Positions 13,161 through 59,670 of a stretch of 64,000 nucleotides of DNA are shown one piece after another (position 1 is the first letter of the stretch; every line of letters begins with the position of its first letter). The stretch comes from Methylobacter tundripaludum SV96. Lineage in GTDB: Bacteria > Pseudomonadota > Gammaproteobacteria > Methylococcales > Methylomonadaceae. Under the pieces are notes generated by a model. It did no database searches and was not told where the DNA came from. It saw nothing but the letters and a program-made list of their open reading frames with translations. The stretch spans positions 310,001 to 374,000 of the forward strand of contig NZ_JH109153.1 of the NCBI RefSeq assembly GCF_000190755.2, written 5' to 3'. The position numbers and the translations under genes were made by a program.

Positions 13161-14725
13161 CTAGGAGACTGTCGGATTTAGCAGTGCAAAAAGTGTTAAA
13201 ATAACCCTATCGAAACACCAAATCAAAAAACAAAAATGGCTACCCAATTCATCCTGATTGATCGCGATACCCCCTACATTCTGCCCCCGTGTGTTCAGGA
13301 TTATTTGCCTGAAGATCATATGGCCCGTTTTGTTGTCGAGATTGTCGATCAACTGGATTTACGGACGCTATCAGCCGTCTATGCGGGCAAAGGAAAGCGC
13401 CCCTATCATCCGGCGATGCTGTTGGCGTTGCTGTTCTACGGTTACGCGACCGGCGTATTTTCCAGTCGCAAACTGGAGAAAGCCACTCATGACTCGATGG
13501 CCTTTAAATACATCTGCGCCAACGAAAACCCAGATCACGACACCATCAACAGCTTTCGCAAGCGCTTTGGCAAAGAGATCGAAAGCCTATTTGTCGAGAT
13601 ATTGGTACTTGCACAAACCTTGGGGCTGCTTAAGCTGGGTACGGTGAGCCTGGACGGCACCAAGATTAAAGCCAATGCCAGCAAGCATAAAGCCTTGAGC
13701 TGGGATTACGCCAATCAACTGGAAGCCCAGTTCAAACAGGAAGTTGAAACCTTGATGAAACTGGCTGAAGCCGCCGACAATTCCCCGCTTCCAGAAGACA
13801 TGGATGTACCCAAGGAACTCAAACGCCGCCAAGACCGTTTAGCAGTGATTGCCAAAGCCAAACAGGAAATCCAGGCCCGTGCCAAGGCGCGTTACGCGCA
13901 AGAAAAGGCCGAGTATGACGAAAAGCAGGCTAAGCGTGAACAACACCTGAGTGAAACCGGCAAGAAAATGGGCGGCAAAGCCCCCCAAGCGCCTACCGAT
14001 GCGCCTCAAGGTAAAGATCAAGTCAGCCTGACCGATGAAGAGTCCCGCATCATGCCGACCCCTAATGGTTTTGAACAAGCCTATAACGCCCAAGCCAGTG
14101 TTGATATTGCCACCCACCTGATCGTTGCTCATCACATCACCCAACACACCAACGACAAACAAGAAATCGAACCGGCCTTAGCCAAACTGGAACAGCTCCC
14201 GGAATGCTTGGGGAGTGTTGACAACCTGTTGGCCGACACCGGCTACTTCAGCCAAGCCAATGTAAAGGCGTGTGCTGATGCAAAGATAAAACCGTACATC
14301 GCCCAAAAGCGGCAAAGCCATAACCAAGCCCTTGACGCCCGGTTTCAGCATCAGCCGGAAATAGGCGAAAGCACCTTACCGCCGGTTGAGGCCATGACCC
14401 ATCGCTTAACAACCAAAGCGGGCAAAGCACTCTACGGCAAGCGAAAATCTACTGTCGAAACCGTGTTTGGCATCATTAAACACGTCCAGGGATTCAGGCA
14501 ATTCCAGCTTCGAGGCCTGGAATCCGTCCAAAGTGAATGGAATTTAGTCTGTATAGGCTGGAATTTAAAAAGAATGCATGTATTAAGAGGGTGAGAGAGG
14601 AAAAAGAGCATTGAGCTGCCCATAAAACAGAACTATGGGCATTAAAAATCCCAATAAACCACTTTTTTAAATTTTAATCGTGATTAAGTGGGGAGGCTCG
14701 CTCTATTAATCCGACAGCCTCCTAG
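13161..14725 (+). mobile_element. IS1182-type insertion sequence between nifX and DUF269
   Basis: About 1.56 kb with one transposase gene. Ends are inverted repeats: left CTAGGAGACTGTCGGATT at 13161 and, read inward on the other strand, CTAGGAGGCTGTCGGATT at 14725, with one mismatch. CTAG at the tips is palindromic, so it may be a 4-bp target duplication or part of the repeat. The IS sits between nifX and the nifX-associated DUF269 gene, genes that are adjacent in other diazotrophs. The transposase frame is intact, so insertion looks recent. Confidence 0.92.
13236..14594 (+). CDS. IS1182 family transposase
   Basis: A 452-aa DDE transposase. The N-terminal DUF772 region (YLPEDHMARFVVEIVDQLDL, PYHPAMLLALLFYGYATG, DHDTINSFRKRF) is followed by LDGTKIKANASKH (first catalytic Asp), a charged coiled-coil insert (about residues 165-255), the core NGFEQAYNAQASVD and LADTGYFS (second Asp), and the C-terminal RKSTVETVFGIIKHVQGFRQF (catalytic Glu). 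It looks complete and in frame. ATG 13236 lies about 75 bp inside the left end. Confidence 0.95.
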   Translation: MATQFILIDRDTPYILPPCVQDYLPEDHMARFVVEIVDQLDLRTLSAVYAGKGKRPYHPAMLLALLFYGYATGVFSSRKLEKATHDSMAFKYICANENPDHDTINSFRKRFGKEIESLFVEILVLAQTLGLLKLGTVSLDGTKIKANASKHKALSWDYANQLEAQFKQEVETLMKLAEAADNSPLPEDMDVPKELKRRQDRLAVIAKAKQEIQARAKARYAQEKAEYDEKQAKREQHLSETGKKMGGKAPQAPTDAPQGKDQVSLTDEESRIMPTPNGFEQAYNAQASVDIATHLIVAHHITQHTNDKQEIEPALAKLEQLPECLGSVDNLLADTGYFSQANVKACADAKIKPYIAQKRQSHNQALDARFQHQPEIGESTLPPVEAMTHRLTTKAGKALYGKRKSTVETVFGIIKHVQGFRQFQLRGLESVQSEWNLVCIGWNLKRMHVLRG

Positions 14726-18649: not shown

Positions 18650-19219
18650 ATGCTACTCGAAACCTATCAAGATAAAGGCTTATTAACTGTCACTTTGGTC
18701 AACGGTCAAACCGGCACTGCGGGTGTTTATGCTTATCGCGGCGACCTGGTTTTAAAAGAAGGATCGCTACGCGAAGGTTCAACAACCGACCGCAGACCGC
18801 CTGAAGCCTTGTTGATTCATTCAGCCTTGATCGTTGAAAACGACAAGATCAAATTTATCAACGGCCTGTTGCCTACGCTCGATTTGTTACCCGTTCTTGT
18901 CGAAAAATATAAAGCCGATCTTGCCGAAGACTGCATCGCTTTAATCTATGTAGAAAATATCGGTAAAGGCTTGCAGGTCGAACTGGAAGGCGTTACCTAT
19001 AAATTAATGCCTTTCAAGGAAGGCTTGGTCTGGAATGAATTGCTCGAAGAATTATATATTGAGAAAAGCGAGCTGAAGGGTCAATCCGCTGAAGATAAGG
19101 TCGCCATCGCTTACGCGGCAGCCAAATCGTATACCCCGAAGACGCCGCTCGTTTCATTTGCCGAAGCCGAAGACAACACTATCGAAGTGATTAAAGACGC
19201 GGCAGTAGGCGCAATTTAA
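18650..19219 (+). CDS. Unknown NifA-regulated protein, paired with AAA+ ATPase
   Basis: A 189-aa acidic protein I do not recognise. No signal peptide, membrane segment or cysteine-rich motif; mixed alpha/beta character with a rich set of LVEKYKADLAEDCIALIYV- and VELEGVTYKLMPFKEGLVWNE-like stretches. It is the first gene behind a sigma54/NifA-type promoter, followed 148 bp later by an AAA+ ATPase, so it could be the ATPase's substrate, adaptor or regulator. Function unknown. Confidence 0.85.
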   Translation: MLLETYQDKGLLTVTLVNGQTGTAGVYAYRGDLVLKEGSLREGSTTDRRPPEALLIHSALIVENDKIKFINGLLPTLDLLPVLVEKYKADLAEDCIALIYVENIGKGLQVELEGVTYKLMPFKEGLVWNELLEELYIEKSELKGQSAEDKVAIAYAAAKSYTPKTPLVSFAEAEDNTIEVIKDAAVGAI

Positions 19220-19367: not shown

Positions 19368-21095
19368 ATGAAACTTCAGATTGAGCGCAAGTATGTCGAA
19401 GCCATGGTCAGTGAGTTTCCGGGGCTGGCGGCATTGAATGATCAATTGCGTTTCGGCAATAAAGCCGAGGTGTCATTCAAGCAACTGTCCAACACCGAGC
19501 TGAGTTTTTTGCAGTCGCTTTACAAAAATGCCGGGACTGAAATGCAAGGCCATGTCGCGTTGCTTTCAACGCTGCAAAAAGCGATGAACGACGATACCGT
19601 CAAGTTTGAAGAACACGACCTGGAACTGCTGCTACCCGCAATTGCCCGTTATCTTATCAATGACGCGATACGCGGTTGGTTATTCCAGACCAACGTTGCC
19701 GGAAAACCCATGGCCTACGTGGTCACCCGGCTGGACTTTACGCCTTCGGGCGAGGAAGAAACCGGACGGGTCACGCTTGAACTCAAAGCCAATGCCAAAG
19801 GTAAAGTGGCGACCTCAACCCTTACTATCCGCGCCCGGGACATTGCCGATAAAACGGTCACGGAAATTTTCGTCGCCAAAGGCTTTCTTAAAGAAACGCC
19901 TGAACTTATCGCCACTTATGACGATGCCGCCGGACGTTATTTCGAATGGTGCGGCCAGTCCGGCACACAGTTTTTAGGCAAAGGCACCGGATTTTATGCC
20001 GAAGATCCCACCGCTTCGCATCGCAGCACCGATTGGGCGCGCAAGGATGTCGTGGTTTTGTCTACCGAAGGCGGGACTGCGCGCCTGGTTAATGATGAAA
20101 GCATCCTCAGCGAGCGCGCCTTATCGGTGGATGCCAAAGGCGACATTCTTGCCAAGTATTTACGCAAAGCCGCCAAAAGCAATCGCTATGACCTCAAGAT
20201 CGAAAATGAAGTTGAAGCATCGGAAAAAGAAATCCCCAAAGGCCTGTTTACCGAGCTGCCGGTACATTGCTACCTGCTGATGTTTCATCTGGAACTGCAT
20301 CATCATTTATGGGTGCATGTGAATGACATCAAGCCTTATCGCTATCAACCGGAATTAAAACAAAAGCTGATTCTTCGCGAAGAACAGATTGATCTGATCG
20401 ATATTCTTACCGCCGAAATGGATGTCCTGATGGATGACATTATTGAAGGCAAGTCGGGCGGCACCACGGTGCTGTGCGCAGGGCCAGCCGGAGTGGGTAA
20501 AACCTTGACTGCCGAAGTCTATTCCGAAATTATCAAACGCCCGCTGTACCGCGTGCATTCCGGGCAATTGGGACTCAACGTCGGCGAGATGGAAAAAGCC
20601 TTAAAAGACGTATTAACCCGCGCTCAGCGCTGGGGCGCGGTGATGCTGATCGACGAGGCGGATGTTTACATCAAGCGGCGCGACAATAATATCGCGATGA
20701 ATGCGGTCGTCGGGGTATTTCTACGGGTGCTTGAATATTTCAACGGCTTGCTGTTTTTGACCACCAATCGTGTGGATGACATTGATGAAGCCATTGTTTC
20801 CCGTTGTATCGCGTTGATTAAGTATTATCCGCCGGACGCCGATGCACGCCGCCGAATCTGGCAGGTCATGATCGAGCAATTCGAGCTGGATGTTGATGCT
20901 GATTTAATTAATCAATTAGTGGATAGCTTCCCGGAAGCGACAGGCCGCGATATCAAAGGGCTTTCCAAACTGGTCGCCAAGTTTTGCCAACACAAAAAAG
21001 TAACGCCGACCTTGGATGTATTCAAGCGTTGCTCGATATTCCGGGGCATGGATCTGGAAAAGTCCGCAGAAAGTGCACTAAATCAGGGCAGTTAA
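19368..21095 (+). CDS. AAA+ ATPase in nif island
   Basis: A 575-aa protein: an N-terminal unknown region (about 1-340) followed by one AAA+ module. Walker A is GPAGVGKT at 372-379, Walker B VMLIDEAD at 425-432, sensor region LFLTTNRVDDIDEAIVSRC with the arginine finger candidate, and a C-terminal lid (EATGRDIKGLSKLVAKF). The module resembles the AAA proteins that remodel protein complexes. Transcribed from a NifA-type promoter with the 189-aa protein, it may remodel or activate a nitrogenase-related protein; that is inference. Confidence 0.88.
   Translation: MKLQIERKYVEAMVSEFPGLAALNDQLRFGNKAEVSFKQLSNTELSFLQSLYKNAGTEMQGHVALLSTLQKAMNDDTVKFEEHDLELLLPAIARYLINDAIRGWLFQTNVAGKPMAYVVTRLDFTPSGEEETGRVTLELKANAKGKVATSTLTIRARDIADKTVTEIFVAKGFLKETPELIATYDDAAGRYFEWCGQSGTQFLGKGTGFYAEDPTASHRSTDWARKDVVVLSTEGGTARLVNDESILSERALSVDAKGDILAKYLRKAAKSNRYDLKIENEVEASEKEIPKGLFTELPVHCYLLMFHLELHHHLWVHVNDIKPYRYQPELKQKLILREEQIDLIDILTAEMDVLMDDIIEGKSGGTTVLCAGPAGVGKTLTAEVYSEIIKRPLYRVHSGQLGLNVGEMEKALKDVLTRAQRWGAVMLIDEADVYIKRRDNNIAMNAVVGVFLRVLEYFNGLLFLTTNRVDDIDEAIVSRCIALIKYYPPDADARRRIWQVMIEQFELDVDADLINQLVDSFPEATGRDIKGLSKLVAKFCQHKKVTPTLDVFKRCSIFRGMDLEKSAESALNQGS
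21074..21090 (+). promoter_or_regulatory. Possible NtrC-like site
   Basis: TGCACTAAATCAGGGCA resembles the NtrC consensus TGCAC-Y-N5-GGTGCA with two mismatches in the right half. It lies in the end of the AAA+ gene, about 95 bp upstream of the -24 box at 21185. Confidence 0.35.
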
Positions 21096-21184
21096 CCAAC
21101 ACAAATAGCTGCGTTTGGTGCAAATGTTATAGTGGTTATCACTAAAATAGACTCAACCAATTGAAATAAAAGAGAATTAAATGT

Positions 21185-21200
21185 TGGCACTATTACTGCA
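21185..21200 (+). promoter_or_regulatory. Sigma54 promoter of a candidate small RNA
   Basis: TGGCAC-TATTA-CTGCA with GG and GC ten bases apart. No gene starts within 290 bp downstream, but a strong terminator follows at 21259, so the transcript would be about 80 nt. Confidence 0.65.
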
Positions 21201-21210
21201 TATATAATTT

Positions 21211-21292
21211 ACATAGTTTGTTTCGTTTGCATAGCCTTTCCTGAGCGTTGTACCTTCCGCGCCCTATTTTCTCGACTAGGGCGCTTTTTTTT
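21211..21292 (+). ncRNA. Candidate sigma54-dependent small RNA
   Basis: Predicted from a sigma54 promoter (21185-21200) and a rho-independent terminator (21259-21292). The RNA of about 82 nt would have a U-rich 5' part, two C/U-rich stretches (GCCUUUCCUG and ACCUUCCG) that could pair with ribosome sites, and a terminator hairpin with eight U. The design resembles nitrogen-controlled RNAs such as NrsZ of Pseudomonas, but no sequence similarity is claimed. The alternative is that the hairpin simply ends the AAA+ operon. Confidence 0.5.
21259..21292 (+). terminator. Rho-independent terminator
   Basis: GCGCCCTA-TTTTCTCGAC-TAGGGCGC followed by eight T. Eight-bp GC-rich perfect stem; one of the best terminators in the window. 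Confidence 0.92.
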
Positions 21293-21340
21293 GCCTGAAA
21301 TATCTCGCCAACCCCAGAAAGCGCGCACTGTTCAAAATTA

Positions 21341-21356
21341 TGGCAACTAATTTGCT
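21341..21356 (+). promoter_or_regulatory. Sigma54 promoter of the rhodanese operon
   Basis: TGGCAA-CTAAT-TTGCT, GG and GC ten bases apart. Expected start near 21367, leaving a leader of about 140 nt before ATG 21507. No perfect TGT-N10-ACA is seen upstream. Confidence 0.75.
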
Positions 21357-21506
21357 AGAGTAATTTGTATAGCATCTATATAGCCCTTAACGCTAACAAA
21401 TAGAGCCACTAACGACATTTAATAGTAACAAAATCTATTTTATTGTTAGTTTTACTACAACCTTCGCATCCTGTTGAGGAATGACCTTCCGAGTCATTAA
21501 ACTGCC

Positions 21507-21815
21507 ATGAAATACAAAACAATCTCCATTGCCGATTCCGAACAATTGATTAAAGAGTCCAAGCCTATGATCCTGGACTGTAGGGACATGAAAGATTACA
21601 GGGCGGGACATTTGGAAGACGCTCTGCACGTTCATGAAGGCTTAAAAGATTCATTGGTTAAGCGCGGCGATAAGCAGCGCAGCCTGTTGATTTATTGCTA
21701 TTACGGCCATGCCAGCGAGCACCTTGCCGAATTTTTCAGCGATTTCGGCTTCAAGGATGTCTATAGTCTGGAAGGCGGTTATTCCGGCTGGAAAGAAAAA
21801 CATCAGGAAGCGTGA
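21507..21815 (+). CDS. Rhodanese-like sulfurtransferase
   Basis: A 102-aa single-domain rhodanese. It shows LDCRDMKDYRAGHLEDALHV, the active-site loop CYYGHAS starting at C64, and the closing VYSLEGGYSGWKE. It would move sulfane sulfur and may support Fe-S cluster assembly for nitrogenase; a nif-linked rhodanese also occurs in A. vinelandii. It starts a three-gene operon (rhodanese, ankyrin, NifY-like) behind a sigma54 promoter. The ankyrin gene overlaps its stop. Confidence 0.9.
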   Translation: MKYKTISIADSEQLIKESKPMILDCRDMKDYRAGHLEDALHVHEGLKDSLVKRGDKQRSLLIYCYYGHASEHLAEFFSDFGFKDVYSLEGGYSGWKEKHQEA

Positions 21816-22267
21816 TGAAGCCTGAAATACGGGATTGGTTGCAAAACAACTATTTCTCTGTAGCCCGGCCGGTTTTAAAGAACAGTGACAACATTTATCC
21901 GTTGATATTGGCAAGCCGGCAAGGCCGTAGCGATGTAGTCCGTTTTTTGATCGAACAGAATGCAGCGCCGGACGTTATCGATCAATACGGCAATAACGCA
22001 TTGTGGGCGGCGTGTTATGCCGATAACAGCGACTGTATCGATGCCCTGATTCAGGCAGGCGTCGATATTAATCATCAAAACTCCGCCTCCGGCGCTACCG
22101 CCTTGATTTTTGCGGCATCCAGCGGCAGGGAAAAAGTTGTCGAACAACTATTGGCGGCCGGCGCCGATCCAGACCTTAAATCGCACGACGATTTCACTGC
22201 GCTGGATTTAGCCTCCACCCGAAAAATACTCAAATTATTATCCAAGCTTGTTAAATCAGGAGATTAA
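21812..22267 (+). CDS. Ankyrin repeat protein
   Basis: A 151-aa protein with about three to four ankyrin repeats: PLILASRQGRSDVVRFLIEQNAAPDVID, NALWAACYADNSDCIDALIQAGVDINHQN, TALIFAASSGREKVVEQLLAAGADPDLK, then TALDLASTRKIL. A protein-binding adaptor; its partner is unknown. The start overlaps the rhodanese stop by 4 bp and the NifY-like gene begins 1 bp after its stop, so the three are translationally linked. Confidence 0.88.
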   Translation: MMKPEIRDWLQNNYFSVARPVLKNSDNIYPLILASRQGRSDVVRFLIEQNAAPDVIDQYGNNALWAACYADNSDCIDALIQAGVDINHQNSASGATALIFAASSGREKVVEQLLAAGADPDLKSHDDFTALDLASTRKILKLLSKLVKSGD

Positions 22268-22268
22268 A

Positions 22269-22982
22269 ATGGAAGCATTGCCCCGTGAACTAGCCTTACG
22301 CATTGCCTTAGCCTCACGCATCCTGCCCGGTATCGACGTACCCAGGCTGCTGGAAATATTACACGAGCGAGTCGGCTCGCCGCTGGATGATGAAAAATTA
22401 AAATCCATCACCGTCACCAATCTTAAAACCGGTTTAGGCAGCCTGGACGGCGAAGAGGACGGCGAGGACATCGGCATCGGTCTTGCCAATATCAAACTGG
22501 CGGTGCGTTACCTGTGGGGCGACGAGGCCGAAGATGAAGACCTGCCGGAAATATTGCCTTATAAAGACGGCGATATGCCGGACTCTATCCGCGTCGCCAT
22601 CGGTTCAAACAGCGGCGCGTTGATTAACGGGCATTTCGGTTCCTGCATCCGTTTTCTGGTTTATCAGTTATCGCAGGATGATTACAAACTGGTTGATATA
22701 CGCTCGACGATTGAAGCCGACAGCAGCGAGGACAGAAACCTGTTTCGCGCCAATTTGATCAAAGACTGTCATGTCATGTTCGTGCAATCCATCGGCGGCC
22801 CGGCGGCGGCTAAAGTGATACGCGCCGATATTTACCCGATCAAGATCCCCGATGTCACCGAAGCGGTCGATCAGTTAAAGGAATTTCAAAAAGTCTTCGA
22901 TGCGCCGCCGCCGTGGTTTGCCAAAGCCCTGGGGCGCTCGGCTGAAGAACGGGTCAGGTTTACGCATGATGAGGTTTGTTAA
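22269..22982 (+). CDS. Second NifY/NafY-like FeMo-cofactor binding protein
   Basis: A 237-aa paralogue of the protein at 3185-3895: same N-terminal helical domain (RELALRIALASRILPGIDVPRLLEIL vs RELALRIGLAARALPDTDAKRLLSVL) and the same cofactor-binding domain (GHFGSC, SIGGPAAAKVI, DAPPPWFAKALGR). It has an acidic insert in the linker (EEDGEDIG). AGGAG lies upstream of ATG 22269. It probably carries FeMo-co or stabilises apo-dinitrogenase, perhaps as NafY to the other copy's NifY. Confidence 0.88.
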   Translation: MEALPRELALRIALASRILPGIDVPRLLEILHERVGSPLDDEKLKSITVTNLKTGLGSLDGEEDGEDIGIGLANIKLAVRYLWGDEAEDEDLPEILPYKDGDMPDSIRVAIGSNSGALINGHFGSCIRFLVYQLSQDDYKLVDIRSTIEADSSEDRNLFRANLIKDCHVMFVQSIGGPAAAKVIRADIYPIKIPDVTEAVDQLKEFQKVFDAPPPWFAKALGRSAEERVRFTHDEVC

Positions 22983-48753: not shown

Positions 48754-48975
48754 CTCATCGCTATCGGCTTTCATGGCTTATTAGCGTGGCTAATCAGCAC
48801 TCCCTTCGCCTCTCTGGTCGCCGAACCGTTAGCCAAACAACTTGGAACATCCCTGCTGGGCATACATCTGAATCTTGCGTTTCACCGTTATCGGTCGCGT
48901 TTAGGTTTAGGCTTTGTGCCGATTCTGACTATACTGGCACCTTATTTGCTTACTCAAAATGCGTCCGGACTATAG
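48754..48975 (+). pseudogene. Possible remnant of a membrane-protein gene
   Basis: A 73-codon stretch without a start codon, open between stops, encodes hydrophobic segments such as LLAWLISTPFASLVAEPLA and VPILTILAPYLLTQNA. No ribosome site or intact start is present, and an upstream TAG interrupts it. It may be the decayed end of a membrane protein gene. No family is claimed. Confidence 0.3.
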
Positions 48976-49252: not shown

Positions 49253-50887
49253 ATGAATAAGCAAACCGTTCTAAACTACCACAATCGCACCAAACACAGC
49301 CTGGAGCGTTACGCCAAAGGCCCGGAATCCATCGATTGGGAAGACCAACCCGATCAATTCCGGCGTTTTTCCGGTTGCGAGATTGTCACGCTGCCCTTAC
49401 CCGGCGCCGAACTTGAACCGTTGTTTGCCGACCTGGATAACCCGGAATTAATACCGTCAAAACCGTTAGACATGGCTAATGTCGGTTTATTGCTGGAATT
49501 AGCCTTCGGCCTGTCGGCATGGAAACAATTCGGGCCAAGCCGCTGGGCATTGCGCTGCAACCCTTCCAGCGGCAACCTTCACCCGACTGAAGCTTATCTG
49601 ATCAGCACCGGCGATGACCGCAACCGCTCCCGGCGAGTTAGCGGCATACACACCATCCCTGGCGATAACTTCATCAAATCGGGCGTTTACCACTATGTCA
49701 GTCACGACCATAGTCTTGAACAGCGTTGTCGGTTTTCCGACAATTTGCCCGATTCCGGCATATTGATCGGTTTGTCTTCAGTCCATTGGCGGGAAGCCTG
49801 GAAATACGGCGAGCGAGCTTTCCGCTATTGCCAGCATGATCTAGGCCATGCCTTGGGCGCATTGCGTTACGCGGCAGCGACGCTGGGCTGGTCGGTTGAA
49901 TTGCAGGCCGAATGGTCGGATGACGACATCGCCAAGCTGTTAGGACTCGATCGGGATGATTTTAAAAAGCTGGAACATGAATCCCCCGACATTATTTGCC
50001 GGATTAATACCCACGCCGACAGCAAGCCGTTAGACATCAAGGCCCTGCTGGAAGCCGCGCAATCGGGAGACTGGTTCGGCAAAGCCGACAGCCTTCGCGC
50101 CTATCATATGTATAAGTGGCCGATCATTGATGAAGTCTCAACTGCCGCCAGCAAACCGCAAACCGAAGAATCTGAGTGGCTGGCAGTACAACAGCCAATT
50201 ATAAAATCATCCTGCACAAAAACGGCAACTGAAATTATCCGTCAACGCCGCAGCGCGCAACAGTTTGACGGCAAAATGACTCCCCTGCCGCAGACTGATT
50301 TTTACCGGATGCTGGCCGCCGTTTTGCCGACCACAGCCGCATTCGAACTGTGGCGCTGGCCGCCGAAAATTCACCTGTTTATTTTCGTGCATCGCGTTGA
50401 AGGTTTAGCTCCCGGCATCTATGCGCTGCCGAGACATAACGATGCCCTTGAATCCTTGCAGGCCGCAACCTTGGCTGATTTCGACTGGCAGAAAGTATCC
50501 GAAGCAATACCGCTTTATCATTTGCATTCAGGAGATTGCAGGCAGATCGCCAAAACGCTTTCCTGCCATCAACCCATCGCCAGCGACAGCGCCTTCAGCC
50601 TGGGCATGGTTGCGGAATTCGGCGAAACCATCGAAGCCGCGCCGTGGCTTTACCGCCGCTTGTTCTGGGAATGCGGCTTGATAGGTCAAACGCTGTATCT
50701 GGAAGCGGAAGCGGCAGGCCTTCGCGGCACCGGTATCGGCTGTTACTTTGATGACAGCGTGCATGAGCTTTTAGGGTTCAAGGACGATAAATTCCAAAGC
50801 CTTTATCATTTTACGGTGGGTAAGCCGCTGGAAGATAAACGACTGGAAACGTTACCAGCTTATGGGCATTTAGACGACGTAGTATAG
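49253..50887 (+). CDS. SagB/ThcOx-type double nitroreductase
   Basis: A 544-aa protein containing two nitroreductase-fold domains in tandem. The first (about 80-235) shows RCNPSSGNLHPTEAYLI and AFRYCQHDLGHALGALRYAAATLGW; the second (about 310-540) shows EIIRQRRSAQQFDGKMTPL and RRLFWECGLIGQTLYLEAEAAGLRGTGIGCYFDD. FMN is expected at the dimer-like interface. SagB relatives oxidise azolines in peptide natural products, but no precursor peptide or cyclodehydratase is nearby. Role unknown. Confidence 0.88.
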   Translation: MNKQTVLNYHNRTKHSLERYAKGPESIDWEDQPDQFRRFSGCEIVTLPLPGAELEPLFADLDNPELIPSKPLDMANVGLLLELAFGLSAWKQFGPSRWALRCNPSSGNLHPTEAYLISTGDDRNRSRRVSGIHTIPGDNFIKSGVYHYVSHDHSLEQRCRFSDNLPDSGILIGLSSVHWREAWKYGERAFRYCQHDLGHALGALRYAAATLGWSVELQAEWSDDDIAKLLGLDRDDFKKLEHESPDIICRINTHADSKPLDIKALLEAAQSGDWFGKADSLRAYHMYKWPIIDEVSTAASKPQTEESEWLAVQQPIIKSSCTKTATEIIRQRRSAQQFDGKMTPLPQTDFYRMLAAVLPTTAAFELWRWPPKIHLFIFVHRVEGLAPGIYALPRHNDALESLQAATLADFDWQKVSEAIPLYHLHSGDCRQIAKTLSCHQPIASDSAFSLGMVAEFGETIEAAPWLYRRLFWECGLIGQTLYLEAEAAGLRGTGIGCYFDDSVHELLGFKDDKFQSLYHFTVGKPLEDKRLETLPAYGHLDDVV

Positions 50888-59498: not shown

Positions 59499-59514
59499 TG
59501 TTACAAGTAATACA
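59499..59514. promoter_or_regulatory. NifA site 1 between rnf and nifLA
   Basis: TGTTACAAGTAATACA, perfect TGT-N10-ACA. About 80 bp from the rnf -24 box and 140 bp from the nifL -24 box. Confidence 0.75.
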
Positions 59515-59537
59515 TATCGACACCGATAAGAATATTT

Positions 59538-59553
59538 TGTCGCAAACCTTACA
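59538..59553. promoter_or_regulatory. NifA site 2 between rnf and nifLA
   Basis: TGTCGCAAACCTTACA, perfect TGT-N10-ACA; its inner CAAACCTTACA matches the reverse of the site at 47781. About 118 bp from the rnf -24 box and 102 bp from the nifL -24 box. Confidence 0.82.
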
Positions 59554-59654
59554 ATGTCTTATGATTCATGAACCCGCTTAGTTCGTAGTCTTGCATTACA
59601 AACAAGGTTGAGCCATGTCAGATTGAGTTATCAGTGAAACATTCGCATTAATGT

Positions 59655-59670
59655 TGGCGTTATATTTGCT
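59655..59670 (+). promoter_or_regulatory. Sigma54 promoter of nifLA
   Basis: TGGCGT-TATAT-TTGCT, GG and GC ten bases apart. Start expected near 59681, 41 nt before nifL ATG. No good NtrC palindrome is seen nearby, only weak TGCA half-sites. Confidence 0.78.

Follow-up and report, generated by a model that had tools for sequence, protein, structure and literature searches.

Does the gap between an AAA+ ATPase gene (19368-21095) and a rhodanese gene (start 21507) in the nitrogen-fixation (nif) island of Methylobacter tundripaludum SV96 hold a gene of its own, and if so, what switches it? We examined this in a 64,000 nt stretch of the 4.85 Mb genome (hereafter the window), which carries nifK, nifE, nifL and nifA, with nifH just beyond its edge. 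A sequence-only reading had proposed a sigma54-driven, nif-linked small RNA in this gap. Our comparisons support its identification as a sigma54-driven, NtrC-type small-RNA gene, and our verdict is that it represents a new putative small-RNA family of the NtrC/sigma54 type that Methylobacter shares with its relatives. We consider it quite probable that this is a stand-alone gene for a trans-acting RNA of about 80 nt, switched by NtrC and sigma54, that pairs at ribosome sites and probably uses Hfq.

The promoter candidate, TGGCACTATTACTGCA (21185-21200, + strand), reads directly as the -24/-12 element TGGCAC-TATTA-CTGCA that had been proposed; the window has a single TGGCACNNNNNYTGCA, where 0.08 would be expected, and eight of 100 shuffles contain one. 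With a start predicted from sigma54 geometry (+1 about 12 nt past the GC) and an end at the U tail, the RNA would span 21211-21292 (+ strand, about 82 nt). The claim that no gene lies behind the promoter held, in that no open reading frame of at least 60 aa overlaps 21096-21434 on either strand, and a sigma-70 promoter scan of 20900-21600 returned zero, where shuffles expect 1.6. The intrinsic terminator (21259-21292, + strand) consists of a stem (21259-21266/21277-21284), a 10-nt loop (UUUUCUCGAC) and the eight T described earlier (21285-21292); an automatic terminator scan of 20900-21600 reported none, its loop limit being 8 against the loop of 10 here. The predicted folding energy of the 82-nt RNA is -19.9 kcal/mol (z = -2.8), and two of 200 shuffles did as well. 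The sequence-only reading had also pointed to two unpaired C/U-rich runs, and in the computed ensemble the cores, UUUCCU and CCUUCC, of the anti-Shine-Dalgarno-like run GCCUUUCCUG (21234-21243, + strand) and of a second run, ACCUUCCG (21252-21259, + strand), were indeed mostly unpaired.

A BLAST query covering 21150-21300, promoter included, gave a match at E <= 0.1 in 61 of the 121 genomes, often a trivial one; 20 genomes, including the source genome, fell below 1e-10, and some were 97-98% identical across the RNA part only. Covariance model R1, built from 25 sequences of the RNA alone, matched 45 of 121 relatives at E <= 0.01. A second RNA-only model, R2 (32 sequences, all from copies having the sigma54 element), gave hits in 85 of the family's 237 genomes at E <= 0.001. 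Two or three copies were present in some of these, although the lowest-scoring rows, at about 30 bits, could be terminators matched by chance. For locus counts 84 of the 104 R2 rows were fetched, the remaining 20 scoring 28.6 to 46.4 bits. Alignment A1 drew on 30 loci, leaving out L017, L025, L029, L030 and the chance match L028; alignment A2 left out eight of the first 42 copies, which had no sigma54 element, as well as L122 and L128. Three genomes of one genus (G036, G123 and G124; L114, L166 and L168) carried the RNA gene in tandem at the nif locus and a third copy on another contig.

Beyond the family, the signal faded. The exact terminator pattern was present in 22 stretches of the GTDB collection, from which the source genome was possibly excluded, and all came from Methylobacter or other Methylococcales/Methylococcaceae. 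In a class sample, 17 of 369 genomes matched at E <= 0.01, none above 31.7 bits apart from the source genome and one family member (41.4 bits), and in a phylum sample 20 of 398 matched, only the source genome exceeding 31 bits. We rejected these extra-family matches as RNA copies and regard them as ordinary terminators, a looser sigma54 pattern preceding only two of 18 that could be anchored (19 of 34 distinct matches were examined); an Rfam scan of 14 extra-family loci returned a TPP riboswitch only. A plasmid collection gave no match to 21096-21320, nor did viral contigs to the terminator pattern.

The promoter travels with the RNA. The pattern [TC]GGC[AG]-N8-GC lay within a 39-nt slot ahead of the RNA in 62 of the 84 fetched hits, against 470/18280 (2.6%) in a control elsewhere in the loci, and the cleaner figure, from hits used for neither model, was 28 of 42. 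This co-occurrence with the RNA models implies that RNA and sigma54 element were inherited together. The conservation of promoter plus terminator on which the sequence-only reading had staked its case was found, including at other loci. Within A2, all 256 of 256 pair cells in the eight-pair terminator stem were standard, two-sided changes affected six of the eight pairs (the covariation that the same reading had suggested looking for), and the covariation score was reached by none of 500 shuffles; the loop was kept in many copies. Ahead of the terminator, UCCU stood in 48 of 62 RNAs, and its longer form [CU]UCCU in 44, while ACCUU occurred in 31. The U8 tail was kept in 48 RNAs, and 57 had 7-9 U. 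Predicted lengths ranged from 61 to 93 nt (74-86 nt in 56/62), and the longest closed reading frame within any RNA was 21 codons, with none at all in 13.

What, then, would drive the promoter? Upstream lie two 17-bp putative NtrC sites. The first, the palindrome TGCACTAAATCAGGGCA (21074-21090, + strand), overlaps the last AAA+ codons and has been kept in relatives, including those in which it does not follow an AAA+ gene; what had been described as an imperfect NtrC-like palindrome proved to be half of a conserved NtrC-type enhancer. Its partner (21106-21122, + strand; conserved right half TTTGGTGCA) was not part of the sequence-only reading, and neither were the IHF-like element and the second sigma54 element (21341) described below. 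The centres, 21082 and 21114, lie 32 bp or three helical turns apart, at about -129 and -97 from 21211. Paired NtrC sites are typically found at about -100 to -140, and those of Escherichia coli glnA are likewise 32 bp, three helical turns, apart. By sequence, then, the locus has the -24/-12 element and paired upstream NtrC-type sites that serve as a criterion for NtrC/sigma54-driven small RNAs.

Across 62 promoters, GC[AC]C[TC] and GGTGC stood 39-43 nt apart in 24, against 19 of 8966 control windows (0.2%), the half-sites mostly at about -110 and -69 relative to the T of TGG. Between enhancer and promoter, CAANNNNTTGA / CAACCAATTGA (21154-21164, + strand), which we take to be IHF-like from its resemblance to the IHF consensus, matched [CT]AAN4[TC]TGA in 32 of 62 promoters (control 201/23289, 0.9%); like the rate for the NtrC pair, this one measures conservation, the copies being related, and a binomial p-value for the pair is no test of independent events. 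The apparent NtrC pair is commonest near the source genus, as 18 of 34 first copies against six of 28 later copies had it. That nine of the 22 promoters outside the nif locus have it arguably makes a stronger point than the overall rates, since copies share descent. In 1.254 Mb of the source genome, 11 places combined a sigma54-like element with an NtrC pair, and only the one at 21185 had TGGCA and the family spacing. NtrC exceeded its curated cut-off in nine of nine genomes tested.

We then considered whether the RNA depends on its neighbours. A copy was assigned to the nif locus if any of four neighbour proteins matched its fetched stretch by tblastn, so that copies on short contigs are perhaps misfiled, and G044 was so classed though its genome has no nifH over cut-off. 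On this basis 58 of the 84 hits were placed at the nif locus and 26 elsewhere; the sigma54 element preceded 40 of the former and 22 of the latter. The 26 stood beside differing genes, some of them convergent on the RNA (G019, G023, G004 and G047). Downstream in the window lie same-strand rhodanese, ankyrin and NifX-like (DIMCO_N/Nitro_FeMo-Co) genes (21507-22982, + strand; nifX model 91.1 bits, below the cut-off of 112), and this shared strand, with a gene order that is preserved at the nif locus, would suit an RNA that was their leader or attenuator. That operon, however, has a sigma54 element of its own outside the RNA gene, TGGCAACTAATTTGC (21341-21355, + strand), 48 nt past the terminator. 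A second element of this kind lay within 300 nt behind the RNA in 42 of 58 nif-locus copies (40 of 51 in a hand-picked subset), usually about 45-49 nt behind the terminator, against a control of 44/2110 (2.1%); no TGT-N10-ACA was present within 250 nt ahead of the one at 21341. Because the downstream operon has this conserved element, and with copies elsewhere facing other or convergent genes, we regard a leader role as scarcely credible.

Another explanation concerns the upstream side, where the RNA could be the 3′ end of an mRNA of the AAA+ gene (PF00004; + strand; match at E <= 1e-40 in 41 of 121 genomes) or of a 189-aa gene of the nif cluster (18650-19219, + strand; no Pfam match), released from a 3′ untranslated region (UTR) or being a mere terminator. 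In several relatives in which no AAA+ gene was found at that place, the 189-aa gene stands immediately before the RNA gene, and its protein accompanies other nif-locus genes in most of the nif-locus stretches fetched. All 18 nif-locus copies lacking the sigma54 element lie within 130 nt past the stop of one or other gene, and in nine of them (G034, G043, G057, G060, G068, G141, G151, G157 and G280) the upstream gene extends into the promoter's place; an apparent degenerate element is retained in G010, G025, G149 and G240. Such promoterless copies may be made as the end of the upstream mRNA. Loci of this 3′UTR type, close behind the AAA+ or 189-aa gene and without a sigma54 element, include L118, L120, L180, L187, L193, L197 and L199. 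Nearness alone proves little, since the window's own RNA, promoter included, begins about 115 nt behind the AAA+ stop, and the element is present in the window, as it is in 40 of the 58 hits at the nif locus; 22 of the 26 other hits have it next to different upstream genes. The sequence-only reading had itself named an AAA+ mRNA simply ending at the terminator as the case that would undo it; 18 of 84 copies resemble that arrangement, and this window does not. An RNA with its own promoter is unlikely to be just a 3′UTR, and for the locus as a whole we rate the 3′-end explanation as very improbable.

The expectation of a nif-linked regulator stood in part: the RNA adjoins nif genes, but it also occurs at non-nif loci and in some genomes with no nifH over cut-off and so is not nif-specific. 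In a tally by hand of 73 family genomes (RNA hits of at least 40 bits, nifH by cut-off), the RNA was present in 26 of 39 nifH-positive and seven of 34 nifH-negative genomes (Fisher p = 1e-4, uncorrected for phylogeny). Among the seven nifH-negative carriers, completeness is about 80% for two (G013 and G014), and a third, G057, carries a partial nifH gene. G004, G008 and G044, at 99% completeness and lacking a nifH over cut-off, kept the RNA, with a strict NtrC pair in G008 and G044 and looser sites in G004. Because copies also occur away from nif and where no nifH exceeds the cut-off, the RNA seems to be tied to nitrogen status in general, with nif a frequent neighbour.

There is, overall, a conserved RNA with its terminator, a candidate sigma54 element and NtrC-type enhancer, and apparent independence from its neighbours. 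From these we infer that the RNA is transcribed and that NtrC is its activator. Under nitrogen limitation, phosphorylated NtrC would occupy the two sites at 21074-21122, a DNA bend at the IHF-like site would bring it to sigma54-RNA polymerase at 21185-21200, and transcription would start near 21211 and end at the terminator with its U8 tail. Through its unpaired UCCU and ACCUU runs, the RNA would then cover the ribosome-binding sites of target mRNAs and lower their translation, with Hfq probably assisting the pairing. The pairing mechanism we infer from the RNA's build, which suggests, without going further, both ribosome-site pairing and Hfq use: a U tail of at least seven after the terminator hairpin is a criterion for Hfq-binding RNAs, this RNA has such a tail, and Hfq is encoded in the genome.

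Several observations count against this account. The sigma54 element is absent in 22 of 84 copies, the first copies were retrieved with a BLAST query containing the promoter, and R2 was built solely from element-bearing copies; since part of the promoter count thus derives from model-building copies, and nearness to a gene is common to both copy types, we hold the preferred explanation with slight caution. The strict NtrC pair is missing in 38 of 62 promoters, and in 22 of 28 among hits outside both models. Three promoters have a shorter pair spacing, G047 has one perfect palindrome (TGCACCTAATTGGTGCA), and several nif-locus copies (G009, G013 and G052) have no recognisable NtrC site. As for targets, the best pairing across the start regions of 1035 genes (26% of the genome) reached -32.7 kcal/mol, against -37.1 for the shuffles' best, and the top candidate, nuoF, was rejected: among the 23 genus genomes it was located in eight at E <= 1e-100, and in those eight its GGAAGG/GAAAGG and the RNA did not vary in concert.

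Since a strict pair or recognisable site is missing from many promoters, other activators may act on them. One alternative keeps the RNA and replaces NtrC with NifA or another sigma54 activator, which would also accord with the way RNA presence tracks nifH. NifA-type TGT-N10-ACA sites, though, were found in none of 28 upstream regions and, within 250 nt, in one of 34 promoters (G070), yet they are present at the window's nifE and nifL; the three near-complete genomes without nifH over cut-off kept the RNA all the same. We judge a switch other than NtrC unlikely.

The target data bear in turn on how the RNA might act. Over the 1035 start regions its mean was -12.99 kcal/mol (12 shuffles, -11.43 to -12.96), and in a window-only scan of 78 genes the mean of -22.87 was lower than 19 of 20 shuffles (-19.8 to -23.0); these lower means are at most a weak hint of pairing. 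The pairing search against nif mRNAs that had been suggested earlier was unproductive for the neighbouring nif cluster, complementarity at starts being at most 8 nt, mostly Shine-Dalgarno and not conserved. The nuoF start region (L277, 970-2241) contains CGGAAGGT, a perfect complement of ACCUUCCG, with an energy within the shuffled controls. RNAs of the CrcZ and CsrB type titrate proteins, and an RNA with no standout target and multiple copies per genome would suit such a sponge. Against titration, the RNA has a conserved UCCU and a U8-tailed terminator, and a UCCU-type run with a U-tailed terminator is the usual mark of a pairing, Hfq-bound RNA; titration in place of mRNA pairing we consider distinctly unlikely.

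The RNA fits no Rfam family at its gathering score: a scan of the window against Rfam 15 gave no matches. Vibrio Qrr RNAs are several homologous sigma54-driven copies per genome under LuxO, an NtrC-family activator, in quorum sensing; the Methylobacter family resembles them in having several sigma54-type copies per genome under a putative NtrC-family activator and differs from them in that they belong to LuxO and quorum sensing, and the window had no Rfam Qrr match. GlnZ of Enterobacteriaceae, which is cleaved from the glnA 3′UTR and has the seed UUGCCGUGGAAA, recalls the promoterless 3′UTR-type copies of the Methylobacter family in the first respect and differs from the RNA in being so made and in its seed. 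NrsZ of Pseudomonas aeruginosa is a nitrogen-limitation RNA reportedly driven by NtrB/C and RpoN (PMC9308961) and shares the promoter logic, which here is a matter of sequence only. Unlike the Methylobacter RNA of about 80 nt, NrsZ is 226 nt long, is processed, acts via ACAGGCAG (in none of 62 RNAs here) and lies beside ntrC, whereas in the source genome ntrC (G000:C1:1243958) and the RNA (contig C2) are not adjacent. NfeR1 of Sinorhizobium (alpha-r14) is a nitrogen-stress RNA with anti-Shine-Dalgarno motifs (PMC10746234), but it has three hairpins with CCUCCUCCC (likewise in none of 62 RNAs), is NtrC-repressed and has a promoter reportedly without a sigma54 signature. NcS25 of Burkholderia, which pairs with a Shine-Dalgarno sequence, is of similar size at 84 nt; its authors found no sigma54-like motif upstream (PMC10117139), unlike the case here.

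A functional parallel is MmgR (suhB, alpha-r8) of alpha-proteobacteria, a 77-nt, NtrC-activated, Hfq-dependent RNA with an anti-Shine-Dalgarno motif (PMC7143759, PMC8401924), for which a table lists RpoD and RpoN (PMC7143759). The suhB/MmgR family RF00519 was also the best Rfam resemblance, at 26.1 bits in the window, and it appeared at an RNA copy in seven of 20 relative loci (21.8-25.1 bits), the aligned letters being mostly terminator. As the score lies under the gathering score of 41, we claim no membership; the RNA would work like MmgR rather than be one. Titles and abstract openings in the open-licence literature yielded no nitrogen-controlled small RNA in gamma-proteobacterial methane oxidisers, and the nearest study there concerns transcription units of the alpha-proteobacterium Methylosinus sporium (PMC12403871).

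The window has other features of note. The nifL gene (59722) has a promoter region at 59499-59670 with a sigma54 element at 59655 and NifA-type TGT-N10-ACA at 59499 and 59538; the scan that gave these sites returned zero NtrC-type matches, and the sites suggest that nifLA is under NifA control. An IS1182-family transposase gene (13236-14594) lies within the nif cluster, and a gene for a SagB-family peptide dehydrogenase of the nitroreductase fold (49253-50887) has the sigma54-like TGGCACCTTATTTGCT upstream at 48935.

Taken across the family, the copies of this one RNA form a natural series in which promoters have been gained and lost. We put forward, tentatively and at somewhat less than an even chance, that the RNA serves the NtrC regulon as an arm throughout the family, at one to three copies in a genome, and that it has shifted between its own NtrC/sigma54 promoter and the 3′ end of a nif mRNA after promoter loss. 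If so, what the RNA signals would differ between species: nitrogen starvation in some, ongoing transcription of nif genes in others. With an NtrC-type RNA conserved next to nif, it would become possible to test in these methane oxidisers the coupling between nitrogen status and the flow of carbon from methane.
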